From positions 1 through 22,889 of IMG/VR virus record IMGVR_UViG_3300043803_000016: DNA of 22,889 nucleotides, one strand, 5' to 3'. The notes beneath the pieces are model-generated. The model saw only the letters and a list, made by a program, of their open reading frames with translations. It was not told the DNA's origin and did no database searches. This document shows positions 10,337 to 12,744 of the stretch, in pieces. The DNA is from a virus. The number at the start of each line of letters is the position of its first letter. Within the stretch, counting starts at the first letter, position 1. Made by a program: the position numbers and the translations under genes.

Positions 10337-10802
10337 TGACAATTCTCCTTACTTCTTCGTAGGCGCTGACGCAGGCGTTGAGCTTGGTGATGGCTTTGTC
10401 TCCTTCGGCTGCGAGGTCGATAAGAGTTGCAATAGTCTGTCGCTCAAGTTCGCTTTCATCGGGCTGGCTGGGTTGTGGATTTCCAGTGGCAATGGTGGCA
10501 CTTGGACTGGCTTGTGGACAACTGGCGGTGGGGAGGCGCAGCCGGCCAGTGCGAGCAAGCTCATGCATAGCAGACTGTTTTTTCTTGACATCATCTTGGG
10601 CCTTTCTGAGTTTCGTTTCCTGATCAATCAATTTAGTGCCAAGCTCTGCCTCTTTGGCTCTGGCCTCTTCATTCTTTTGGGCAATGGCCAGCTTCATGTC
10701 ATTGTCCCTGTCTGTCCATCCATAGTGATAGCCGCCTTTGTATGAGCCAAGCAGGGCAATGCCCACAGCAAATGCAATCCAAGGGAGTGGTATTCCAAAC
10801 AT
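10326..10802 (-). CDS. Rz: Rz-like inner-membrane spanin subunit
   Basis: Spans the periplasm with Rz1 and fuses inner and outer membranes in the last step of lysis of Gram-negative hosts. 158 residues: N-terminal signal anchor (residues about 5-20, PLPWIAFAVGIALLGS), then a long charged periplasmic helix (AIAQKNEEARAKEAELGTKL and following) with coiled-coil pattern, and an Ala/Glu-rich C-terminal helix. The start is ATG 10802, in a TAATG junction with the upstream gene and with AGGAG about 9 bases before it. A separate lipoprotein gene lies wholly inside this one in the +1 frame, the same layout as lambda Rz/Rz1, which strongly supports the call. Confidence 0.9.
   Translation of the reverse strand: MFGIPLPWIAFAVGIALLGSYKGGYHYGWTDRDNDMKLAIAQKNEEARAKEAELGTKLIDQETKLRKAQDDVKKKQSAMHELARTGRLRLPTASCPQASPSATIATGNPQPSQPDESELERQTIATLIDLAAEGDKAITKLNACVSAYEEVRRIVNGQ
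10349..10594 (-). CDS. Rz1: Rz1-like outer-membrane spanin lipoprotein, embedded in Rz
   Basis: Wholly contained in the Rz gene, in the +1 frame. From ATG 10594 (or the next ATG at 10591) the product starts MMSRKNSLLCMSLLALAGC: basic n-region, hydrophobic core and a LAGC lipobox for signal peptidase II. The mature part is about 60 residues and Pro-rich at its start (SPPPVVHKPVQVPPLP), as in lambda Rz1. The frame is open further upstream to 10627, but the lipoprotein signal decides the start. Confidence 0.9.
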   Translation of the reverse strand: MMSRKNSLLCMSLLALAGCASPPPVVHKPVQVPPLPLEIHNPASPMKANLSDRLLQLLSTSQPKETKPSPSSTPASAPTKK

Positions 10803-11347
10803 TATTCTGACTCCTGTCTGGCAGCTGCCAGTTGAATGCGCTCATGGTCATCCTCAAGATGGTCCGGTGGCGTGTCTGGTGGTGGACCAGGAGTCCATGA
10901 CTCATCAAGCTCTGGGTTGGTCCAAGTGGGCATTGCACCAAATGGCTGAGATGGGATGCCGTTGGTCTTTGCGTTAAAGCCGTGATTGTTGCTGTAGCCG
11001 TATTGCTGGCCATAGCCTTGCATGGGCTGGCCTATGCACTGGCCCATGGGTGGCGTTGGATTCATTCTTCCAGCAAATGATTTAGCGCCTTTGTTGATGG
11101 CAAACATACCAATCAATGTGCTGATACTTCCAACCAATAAAAGCACAACGTCATTTAAGAGCTTGGTAAAAGCACTGTCAATCGGGGCCATTGATTTGAT
11201 TGGTTGGGTCACAAAAATTACAGAATAGAGCATTGCAAAGACTGTGAAGCCAAAGACAAGCATGACAACAACCACTGCAAAAAGCCACCCATAAACTTTC
11301 AGAAGCTCAATCGTTTCCTCTGTGCTTTTAACTTCAGAAAGTTTCAT
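10802..11347 (-). CDS. Membrane protein, holin candidate, 181 residues
   Basis: Two or more hydrophobic segments are visible: about residues 18-48 (LLKVYGWLFAVVVVMLVFGF, running on through TVFAMLYSVIFV) and about 62-85 (FTKLLNDVVLLLVGSISTLI, then GMFAIN). The C-terminal 95 residues are hydrophilic, rich in Pro, Gly, Gln and Met, and look disordered. The LLNDVVLLLVGSISTLIGMF segment resembles the second membrane helix of several phage holin families. Together with the Rz, Rz1 and endolysin genes directly downstream this makes it the leading holin candidate. It starts at ATG 11347 in an ATGA junction with GAGGAAG about 9 bases before. The long disordered tail is unusual for a holin, so another membrane role is possible. 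Confidence 0.6.
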   Translation of the reverse strand: MKLSEVKSTEETIELLKVYGWLFAVVVVMLVFGFTVFAMLYSVIFVTQPIKSMAPIDSAFTKLLNDVVLLLVGSISTLIGMFAINKGAKSFAGRMNPTPPMGQCIGQPMQGYGQQYGYSNNHGFNAKTNGIPSQPFGAMPTWTNPELDESWTPGPPPDTPPDHLEDDHERIQLAAARQESE

Positions 11348-11547
11348 TTTTTGGCTTCCTCTTGTGGTTGGACATCACCAATCTTTTTGTCCAAGATGGG
11401 TGCGACCAAGTATTCTGGACACATCTGGGTAAATAAGCACTTTGGCTTCTGACACTCTGGTGCATGGAAATGGTCAGGATTCTGGCACTTGTATCGATAA
11501 CGATCTTCGCAGCCAGTCAGCAGTAAAAGAAGCAATAGATATCTCAT
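11344..11547 (-). CDS. Small Cys-rich lipoprotein
   Basis: 67 residues. Short signal with seven Leu in a row and a LTGC lipobox (Cys13), so the mature protein begins CEDRYRYKCQNPDHF and is lipid-anchored. Four further Cys (21, 32, 37, 43) in a C-x10-C-x4-C-x5-C pattern could form two disulfides in the periplasm. Similar small CEDRYRY-type lipoproteins recur in phages from water samples (memory). Role unknown: a lysis accessory or a superinfection-exclusion lipoprotein, as T5 Llp is, are both possible. It is coupled by ATGA overlaps at both ends. Confidence 0.75.
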   Translation of the reverse strand: MRYLLLLLLLTGCEDRYRYKCQNPDHFHAPECQKPKCLFTQMCPEYLVAPILDKKIGDVQPQEEAKK

Positions 11548-11699
11548 TTTCCCAATCCTACTCTGCCCAGCAGTAAATTGACAATTCTGTCAGATAAGTC
11601 ATCCGGCAAAAACTTCAAGAAGCCAAGAAACCATAATGCCACACACCCGTAAACGAATATCTTGAGGCATAGGTCAAAGGTCTTCTGGTACTCATTCAC
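11544..11699 (-). CDS. Small single-span membrane protein, 51 residues
   Basis: I chose GTG 11699 because it overlaps the upstream stop codon in a GTGA junction and has AAGG about 8 bases before it; the frame is open a little further upstream without a better start. The product begins NEYQKTFDLCLKIFVYGCVA and has one hydrophobic segment (about residues 11-30) followed by an amphipathic helix (LPDDLSDRIVNLLLGRVGLGK). It lies in the chain of overlapping membrane genes before the lysis cassette. Function unknown; holin or antiholin is a guess. Confidence 0.55.
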   Translation of the reverse strand: MNEYQKTFDLCLKIFVYGCVALWFLGFLKFLPDDLSDRIVNLLLGRVGLGK

Positions 11700-12190
11700 C
11701 GACCACACCTTTTGGTAGTTGCACAAAACTCCATGAGTTCATAGATACCAATACCGACCAGGAACAAAACAAAAGCCACACCGCCAATGATCATGGCCAG
11801 CTCATTCATCTCTTCTTCTTTCTTTTTGGCCGCCTTCTCTGCCTTCTCTAAAGACCGCAGCTCTCTCGCGTCATCGATGTCCATCTGGTCCTGACGGGCC
11901 TTGATCTTGTTCCAGACATCGACCTTGCCTGTGGTCATAAAGAGCATTTTTAACTCTTCCTCAAAGGCTCTGGCCTGCTCCAGTGCCATCTCAATCTGGA
12001 GCGCTTGCCCCATGTTTGAGCCTTTGTTTTTCTTAGCATCAAGCAGGGCCTTGGTGGCTGTACTCTTGGCATCAAACATCTTGCCAATCATTGGAGCGAG
12101 ACCGCCTAGATCATTGGCAACCTTGCTGGCCTTCTTGACCATGCTGATAGCACTTTGCAGACCTTCTAATGCGCTGATTGGATCGATCAT
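11696..12190 (-). CDS. C-terminally anchored helical membrane protein, 164 residues
   Basis: Starts MIDPISALEGLQSAISMVKK, then a helical region with a coiled-coil stretch ending in a Lys/Glu-rich segment (EKAEKAAKKKEEEMNE, about residues 116-130), then one membrane segment (about 131-152, LAMIIGGVAFVLFLVGIGIY) and a short Cys-containing tail. The layout of an MxDP start, a charged helical domain and a C-terminal anchor recalls a small-protein family common in aquatic phages, usually left unnamed. It could be a lysis timing protein or a virion-associated membrane protein; the sequence does not decide. Joined to its neighbours by ATGA upstream and GTGA downstream. Confidence 0.65.
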   Translation of the reverse strand: MIDPISALEGLQSAISMVKKASKVANDLGGLAPMIGKMFDAKSTATKALLDAKKNKGSNMGQALQIEMALEQARAFEEELKMLFMTTGKVDVWNKIKARQDQMDIDDARELRSLEKAEKAAKKKEEEMNELAMIIGGVAFVLFLVGIGIYELMEFCATTKRCGR

Positions 12191-12309
12191 TTTTTCTCAA
12201 CCTTTTCCCACTTGATGCAGACAACCCTCCGATTGTAGACATCACCGGTCCATGTCCACTTGACGCATCTGTACTCGATGGCCGCTAATAGGACCAGAGC
12301 ATAAATCAT
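12187..12309 (-). CDS. Very small membrane-anchored protein, 40 residues
   Basis: From ATG 12309, which overlaps the stop of the preceding 30-residue frame (ATGA), the product is MIYALVLLAAIEYRCVKWTW followed by a basic tail with two Cys in total. The short hydrophobic start could be an anchor or signal. The same frame is open upstream to 12456 with a Cys/His-rich translation that does not look like a protein, so I prefer the short form. Function unknown. Confidence 0.5.
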   Translation of the reverse strand: MIYALVLLAAIEYRCVKWTWTGDVYNRRVVCIKWEKVEKK

Positions 12310-12398
12310 GGCCAAAACAAAATGATGACAAAAAAAGACCATGCAATGGTCAGAACAAGCAAGGCCGCAGCAATGATTGCCACGGCCCAGTCTCTCAT
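12306..12398 (-). CDS. Possible 30-residue single-span membrane peptide
   Basis: ATG 12398 overlaps the upstream stop (ATGA), and the stop overlaps the next ATG (ATGA), exactly as in the neighbouring genes. The product, MRDWAVAIIAAALLVLTIAW plus ten more hydrophobic residues, is almost entirely one membrane helix. The middle of the frame also encodes a terminator-like hairpin with seven T, so this segment may be regulatory as well as, or instead of, coding. Confidence 0.45.
   Translation of the reverse strand: MRDWAVAIIAAALLVLTIAWSFFVIILFWP
12330..12351 (-). terminator. Intrinsic terminator or attenuator inside the small-gene chain
   Basis: Reading the minus strand: perfect 6-bp stem GACCAT/ATGGTC with loop TGC, then seven T. 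It sits within a 30-residue frame rather than between genes, so it could lower or condition read-through into the downstream lysis genes. Confidence 0.55.
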
Positions 12399-12592
12399 AG
12401 CCCGAATATTTTTTTGACGAATTCGGCAGCGACACCTGGTCCAAACAAGACCGCAATGATCACCGCATACAAAAGGTATTCAATCTTGGTCATGCGCTTG
12501 TCCCCATCGCGCAGTGACCGATCAATGTTGTTGTATCTCTCTAAACAGATCGCCTCATGCACGGCAAGCCTTTTGTCAATATCTGCATCCAT
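12395..12592 (-). CDS. Holin-like small membrane protein with hydrophilic N terminus
   Basis: 65 residues from ATG 12592 (a GTG at 12598, overlapping the upstream stop, is also possible). The first 40 residues are charged and helical (DADIDKRLAVHEAICLERYN, then NIDRSLRDGDKRMTKIEY), followed by one membrane helix (LLYAVIIAVLFGPGVAAEF) and KKIFGL at the end. A charged helix before a single C-terminal span is the layout of XhlA-type lysis proteins. Location just upstream of other membrane genes and the lysis cassette supports a role in lysis, but no residue-level signature proves it. Confidence 0.55.
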   Translation of the reverse strand: MDADIDKRLAVHEAICLERYNNIDRSLRDGDKRMTKIEYLLYAVIIAVLFGPGVAAEFVKKIFGL

Positions 12593-12594
12593 GA

Positions 12595-12744
12595 TCACTC
12601 AGCAGCTGGCGCTTCTTTGACAAGCTGCGCGTCTGCTTGCTCTTTGACCTTGACGATCAATGGCCAGACACCGCTGGATGATGGCAGCTGACCCAGAGTC
12701 TGCAAAATGAATTGCACTTCATTAACTTCAAGATTCAAATTCAT
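12595..12744 (-). CDS. Small hypothetical protein, 49 residues
   Basis: Starts at ATG 12744 in an ATGA overlap with the upstream gene and stops at 12595-12597. Product MNLNLEVNEVQFILQTLGQL, then PSSSGVWPLIVKVKEQADAQ and a short Ala/Glu tail; soluble and helical. Small proteins with an L-x-x-V-x-x-I-L-Q-x-L-G-x-L-P core followed by a V-x-x-Q-x-x-A-Q-L helix recur near tail fibres in aquatic phages (memory). A fibre-assembly or structural role is possible but unproven. Confidence 0.65.
   Translation of the reverse strand: MNLNLEVNEVQFILQTLGQLPSSSGVWPLIVKVKEQADAQLVKEAPAAE

Follow-up and report, generated by a model that had tools for sequence, protein, structure and literature searches.

Tiny genes joined by start-stop overlaps ahead of the lysis genes of a freshwater podophage, with a lipoprotein and two-transmembrane protein pair in the probable holin slot

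The virus record IMGVR_UViG_3300043803_000016 from IMG/VR, a freshwater podophage analysed here over its whole length of 22,889 bases (the window), carries a run of very small genes in the region where phages have their lysis genes. The tail fibre (14862-13060) and the endolysin (10336-9743), both on the minus strand, flank DUF7936, g49, g65, g30, g40, g164, g51, g67, g181 and Rz with an embedded Rz1. An initial annotation described a chain of tiny, mostly membrane-bound genes joined by start-stop overlaps, and offered a complex lysis-timing module or superinfection exclusion as its role. As the chain runs into Rz with its embedded Rz1 and a GH19 endolysin, it can be read as the front of the late lysis operon. 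From synteny, we consider it fairly likely that the two-transmembrane (two-TM) protein g181 acts as the holin or as a part that the holin cannot do without, that the lipoprotein g67 is its extracytoplasmic partner, and that g40-g164-g51 (block A), along with g65 and g30, are accessory timing factors within this operon.

The short genes and their overlaps

Frames of 30-50 amino acids (aa) are frequent by chance, and it might be argued that most of the tiny frames are spurious artefacts of a dense region. However, ten frames on the minus strand, from 13040 to 10326, are linked by overlaps of 4 nucleotides (nt) or 1 nt when the GTG start of g65 is counted, and, with frames of 28 aa or more considered, the longest such chain in 500 dinucleotide shuffles was no more than 4 (and was 2 in 347 of them); elsewhere on the minus strand of the window it is 3. 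The frames named in the initial annotation are all present on this strand where it had placed them, and its junctions are borne out: ATGA for DUF7936/g49, g65/g30, g30/g40, g40/g164, g51/g67 and g67/g181, GTGA for g164/g51, and TAATG (1 nt) for g181/Rz. The GTGA of g49/g65 depends on a GTG start at 12598; with the ATG at 12592, which is usable in those relatives that have g65, a 2-nt gap is left.

Conservation was examined in approximately 150 IMG/VR loci retrieved with g164 or g181 as the query. Internal stops were absent from g49, g65, g30, g164, g67, g181 and Rz (22-140 relatives per gene) and were found in 1 of 138 relatives for g40 and 7 of 143 for g51. The 4-nt overlap was kept in 58 of 63 relatives at g65/g30, 119 of 132 at g40/g164 and 118 of 139 at g164/g51, and the 1-nt overlap of g181 and Rz in 126 of 128. 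Poor conservation had been named beforehand as the sign that would tell against the chain, and what is observed is the opposite. For most of the short genes the median ratio of nonsynonymous to synonymous substitution rates (dN/dS) is 0.07-0.15 (Table 1), comparable to that of the endolysin (0.08); the higher value for Rz, 0.37, is as expected for a gene with Rz1 embedded in it. The weakest case is g30, for which the ratio of nonsynonymous to synonymous polymorphism (pN/pS) is relaxed among close pairs, yet whose length is almost invariant. Two terminator-like hairpins were also noted inside g30 (12388-12362 and 12351-12337, minus strand), from a scan that barely exceeds its shuffled expectation. 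The short genes are real and under purifying selection; spurious frames are an exceedingly improbable account of the region, one already refuted for every gene except possibly g30. Ribosome sites before g65, g30 and g40 are poor or unclear, and together with the overlaps this suggests re-initiation, by which these three genes are probably translated, and fixed product ratios.

The probable holin slot and the g67-g181 pair

The content of the holin slot was counted in 194 non-redundant loci, each having a g164-type gene followed by 1.6 kb or more of sequence. g181 is present in 126 of them, always with g67, and a three-TM holin or holin-like gene in 62 (47 of the PF11351 type and 15 of a second type); the two never occur together. 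This extends to close relatives of the window: where g51 is present, 106 loci have g181, 14 have a 167-aa type and two have neither, these two carrying a gene designated X4. The 167-aa protein, which Pfam does not recognise, aligns with a PF11351 holin along almost all of its length (24% identity, expectation value (E) 0.006) and is probably a holin. The association of g67 with g181 is close to absolute, g181 lying directly downstream of g67 in 151/151 non-redundant loci and g67 directly upstream of g181 in 159 of 161. Gene-distance correlations are likewise highest for this pair (0.50), followed by g164-g51 (0.46) and by Rz-lysin, g67-g51 and g67-lysin (0.44-0.45). One contig, IMGVR_UViG_3300042938_000134 (L082, L083), has two g181 copies, one towards each contig end, and is perhaps a joined assembly.

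The predicted topology of g181 is N-in/C-in, with three Lys/Arg residues just after the second hydrophobic segment and a conserved loop of consensus VTQPIKSMAPIDQAYTKMLND. Beyond its lipobox, g67 has a strictly conserved domain, YRYxCQxP...C..P.C....C, with four Cys besides that of the lipobox. This make-up also bears upon superinfection exclusion, in which g67 (and perhaps g181 or block A) would block adsorption or DNA entry of later phages, as Llp, Cor and Rtp45 do from the outer membrane and Ltp does in a Gram-positive host. g67 is, like Llp, Cor and Rtp45, a small phage lipoprotein (PMC12685063, PMC13164509), and its size and disulfide-type make-up recall Rtp45, an exclusion lipoprotein of approximately 6 kDa with a disulfide (PMC12685063); Ltp and similar lipoproteins exclude phages of a Gram-positive host (PMC3952083), and the chain begins beside the tail fibre. 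However, the context does not back such a role. g67 goes with g181 and the lysin and not with the tail fibre or DUF7936, which vary freely (34 versus 132 relatives), and it is missing wherever a three-TM type replaces g181. Furthermore, the g67-like protein of ct7L0027 has an N-terminal TM instead of a lipobox, and this form, with the homologues in actinophage-like contigs, speaks against an outer-membrane receptor. Profile searches of the PDB gave no relevant solved structure for g67 or g181 and no exclusion lipoprotein for g67 (an actin-depolymerising factor that matched g67 at E 0.001 was dismissed as chance). We regard exclusion as distinctly unlikely.

The pair occurs in Actinomycetia phage DSL-LC01 as well as in ct7L0027, and a separate scan with the two-TM protein of DSL-LC01 as the query covered 71 actinophage-like contigs. 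The lipoprotein motif stands just upstream of the two-TM gene in 50 of the 71, with a 4-nt overlap in 38, and the pair is near a small holin-like protein in 46 loci and a VanY peptidase in 29. This small protein matches the phrog_443 holin family at E 2e-6, although its best PHROG is a short family that bears a nuclease label. That the host is an actinobacterium is indicated only by how a single metagenome-assembled record is labelled; if that label is right, the g67-type lipoprotein would work at the cytoplasmic membrane. A scan of a bacterial and archaeal genome collection with g67 returned two contigs of metagenome-assembled genomes (MAGs) only, and in one, a Bacteroidia MAG contig (L404, 5950-6105), the g67-like frame lies at the contig end, possibly in phage sequence that had been placed in the same bin. 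The collection gave no match to g164, and so no host is named; an alignment of distant g164 proteins proved too divergent for scanning a collection.

Several observations weigh against g181 as the holin of a timed lysis operon. The loci counted are phylogenetically related, so the counts are not independent, and the 15 second-type three-TM genes are not recognised as holins by Pfam. The further holin-like gene beside the pair in the actinophage-like contigs means that g181 may not be the main holin there, and caution against over-reading g181 is advised by F1 mycobacteriophages, in which a two-TM protein beside a one-TM protein turned out not to be a simple holin (PMC13056207). The block A proteins, g67 and g181 match no family of known function, and the AlphaFold models are moderate or poor: that of g164 is all-helical with a predicted local distance difference test (pLDDT) score of 74, and that of g67 is poor (65). 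Foldseek comparison of the g164 model with the PDB gave nothing below E 0.5, and with a viral structure library only uncharacterised phage proteins at E <0.001. PADLOC, NCBIfam and Pfam provided no usable match for the tiny proteins, and weak matches of g164 to EssA, FixQ and spanin2, below curated cut-offs, probably stem from its helix and TM composition. PHROG already groups relatives of g164 (phrog_32327, E 1.6e-11 over profile positions 1-142 of 152) and of g181 (phrog_25359, E 3.6e-8 over 7-81 of 94) in families without assigned function, while the spanins and endolysin are unremarkable representatives of established families.

Block A and the exchange of lysis modules

A comparison of gene order in related phages, as the initial annotation had proposed, indicates that the members travel as blocks. 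Block A is kept upstream of differing lysis modules, namely g67-g181-Rz-GH19 (block B, the lipoprotein and two-TM protein, then Rz/Rz1 and GH19), the 167-aa three-TM-holin-like protein with a phage lysozyme (PF00959), or X4 with GH108 (PF05838). The swap is seen even among close relatives, with g67-g181-Rz-GH19 in L011 and the 167-aa gene and lysozyme in L012, where g164 is 88 and 87% identical, respectively, to that of the window. Block A is itself replaced by X4-X5-X6 in eight loci, and there are optional genes, X0 (53-58 aa, between g51 and g67) and X1 (approximately 31 aa, hydrophobic); tblastn against GenBank phages found no credible relative of g51 or X0. X4, of 200-250 aa, is N-anchored, has a predicted extracytoplasmic domain and no Pfam match, and stands in place of block A or of the g67-g181 pair (L140, L142, L143, L148, L150-L152, L158; L037, L039, L050). 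A longer g164-like protein (approximately 220-230 aa, cluster c20) fills the place of g164 in 13-14 loci with g67-g181 (including L253, L254, L256, L249 and L164), and an HNH/AP2-like homing-endonuclease frame is inserted at varied points of the cassette (g40|g164, g51|g67, Rz|lysin; L019, L111, L041, L071, L153).

Just upstream of distant relatives of g164 (L167-L246) there is often a further small protein with two Cys and a signal-like start, most often with a 4-nt overlap (30 of the 52 scored), and downstream of these relatives come a PF11351 three-TM holin and a lysin, of M15 type or other. From these architectures, a two-Cys peptide and g164-type pair stands repeatedly directly upstream of a holin. 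In ctjtQ328 and ctYwJ313, relatives of g164 also adjoin genes annotated as holin and lysin, and in ctnlZ23 a holin-like gene and lysozyme; in HMO-2011 the relative is a few genes away from the lysozyme.

These arrangements can be read in another manner, with block A as a late membrane module unrelated to lysis (for example in host takeover or membrane-associated assembly) whose place between the tail and lysis genes is incidental. Its retention when the downstream module swaps, its exchange as a unit for X4-X5-X6 and its lack of a functional family match are all consistent with this. However, in several phage groups that differ in their lysins the g164 family adjoins holin or lysin genes, of which chance proximity to tail genes is an unlikely source, and we hold a role outside lysis to be possible but on balance doubtful. 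A second proposal would have g65, with one TM and an XhlA-like layout, or g65 with g30, be the holin, and g67-g181 be an antiholin or lysis-inhibition pair, with g67 as T4 RI and g164 as RIII. The two holin candidates of the initial annotation were presumably g65 and g181. One-TM helical proteins like g65 take the corresponding place in relatives of both holin types, T4 has both a periplasmic and a cytoplasmic antiholin (PMC11413866), and the holin-like gene adjoining the pair in actinophage-like contigs would fit as well. However, g65 or its analogue occurs with and without the three-TM holin and so has no replacement behaviour, as g181 does; no Pfam, PHROG or NCBIfam match named XhlA at the thresholds used, only the layout being alike. 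A g65 holin is accordingly unlikely in our estimation.

The features of the chain and of the adjoining lysis genes are collected in Table 1. Rz, with an N-terminal TM, and Rz1, a lipoprotein encoded inside Rz in another frame, have the make-up of a two-component spanin. Two of the small products call for a correction: g49 is a soluble protein without a TM, and the anchored peptide g40 does have a short N-terminal signal or anchor but is better read with the extracytoplasmic two-Cys hairpin of 30 residues that follows. The window also encodes SU10-type portal, capsid and adaptor proteins, and its minus strand carries most of the long frames, including all structural ones; an Anp1-type glycosyltransferase gene (PF03452; 16665-17315, minus) lies between the adaptor and capsid genes.

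Table 1. Features of the overlap chain and adjoining lysis genes (positions in the window)
Feature	Position	Strand	Remarks
DUF7936 protein, 99 aa	12741..13040	minus	PF25590, Pfam E 1.8e-25; downstream of tail fibre; upstream end of overlap chain
g49, 49 aa, soluble	12595..12744	minus	no TM segment; 22 relatives, dN/dS 0.09
g65, 65 aa	12395..12592	minus	charged N-terminal helix, one C-terminal TM 41-59; XhlA-like layout; 67 relatives, dN/dS 0.08
g30, 30-aa single-TM peptide	12306..12398	minus	Shine-Dalgarno site not evident; 106 relatives, almost always 30-31 aa; pN/pS 0.41
g40, 40 aa	12187..12309	minus	short signal or anchor at the N-terminus, followed by an EYRCxxWxWTGDVYNRxVxCxxW hairpin (two Cys); 138 relatives, dN/dS 0.14
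g164, 164 aa	11696..12190	minus	cytosolic helical domain and C-terminal TM 131-149; phrog_32327; 140 relatives, dN/dS 0.10
g51, 51-aa single-TM protein	11544..11699	minus	GTG start (also in 99 of 143 relatives); dN/dS 0.07
g67, 67-aa lipoprotein	11344..11547	minus	lipobox LLTGC, C13; YRYxCQNP...C..P.C....C domain; 132 relatives, dN/dS 0.12
g181, 181 aa, predicted holin or holin component	10802..11347	minus	TM 22-40, 67-85; 20-residue conserved loop; Pro/Gln-rich tail of ~95 aa; phrog_25359; dN/dS 0.15
Rz (i-spanin), 158 aa	10326..10802	minus	phrog_1327 Rz-like spanin, E 5.6e-11
Rz1 (o-spanin lipoprotein), 80 aa	10349..10591	minus	other frame, inside Rz; phrog_3198 Rz-like spanin, E 3e-4; lipobox LALAGC
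GH19 (chitinase-type) endolysin, 197 aa	9743..10336	minus	PF00182, E 5e-12; phrog_181 endolysin, E 4e-77

Known systems and a possible mechanism

As in a lambda-type cassette, Rz with its embedded Rz1 stands beside an endolysin among late genes; unlike it, the spanins here precede the lysin, the holin slot holds a lipoprotein and two-TM pair, and six more tiny genes lie upstream. In its predicted layout, g181 is comparable to class II holins such as gp11 of mycobacteriophage D29, which has two TM, an N-in/C-in topology and an 81-aa C-terminal tail (PMC9671378). However, the tail of g181 is Pro/Gln-rich, its lipoprotein partner is constant, and the likeness is one of layout. T4 likewise has an extracytoplasmic Cys-containing protein (RI) and a cytosolic protein (RIII) beside its holin (PMC11413866), but RI carries a cleavable signal peptide instead of a lipid anchor, and the likeness is one of layout. 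Against Llp, Cor and Rtp45, the linkage of g67 to lysis genes again sets it apart. The initial annotation was correct that there are more membrane genes here than a holin/antiholin pair needs, but this has precedent, as four TM proteins of holin-like type are reported from a Gordonia phage (PMC11385102). Cassettes of actinobacteriophages (Gordonia phages, F1 mycobacteriophages) similarly hold several holin-like membrane genes each (PMC9671378, PMC11385102, PMC13056207); the available parts of these sources describe no lipoprotein partner, and the likeness is one of gene content.

A complex lysis module, as first suggested, is well supported by the fusion of the chain to Rz/Rz1-GH19 and by the presence of g181, with g67, in the slot of the three-TM holin, and lysis timing is a plausible role for the chain. 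It is reasonable to postulate that g181 would open the membrane as the holin or an essential component of it, while g67, held by its lipid anchor, would present a disulfide-type domain on the outside of the cytoplasmic membrane, where it may bind the conserved loop of g181 and so set the time of opening. Block A, as a secreted two-Cys peptide (g40), a tail-anchored cytosolic helical protein (g164) and a small TM protein (g51), with optional g65, g30 and X0, would constitute a separable accessory block that tunes the trigger of whichever holin follows. The start-stop overlaps may hold the product ratio fixed, and Rz/Rz1 and the GH19 enzyme would complete lysis. More tentatively, g67-g181 might be a new kind of two-component holin, in which a lipid-anchored, disulfide-bonded partner gates a two-TM hole former, common to phages of Gram-negative and actinobacterial hosts, and g40-g164-g51 might be a general sensor or timer for differing holins.

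No description of the g67-g181 pair was found in a limited body of literature, and the pair and these cassette components appear to be undescribed. The lysis genes of freshwater phages are mostly without annotation, and hundreds of environmental phages carry a cassette of this type, in which an undescribed lipoprotein and two-TM pair occupies the holin slot and an accessory block stays in place when lysin and holin change. If confirmed, these would provide two lysis markers for the annotation of many uncultured phages.

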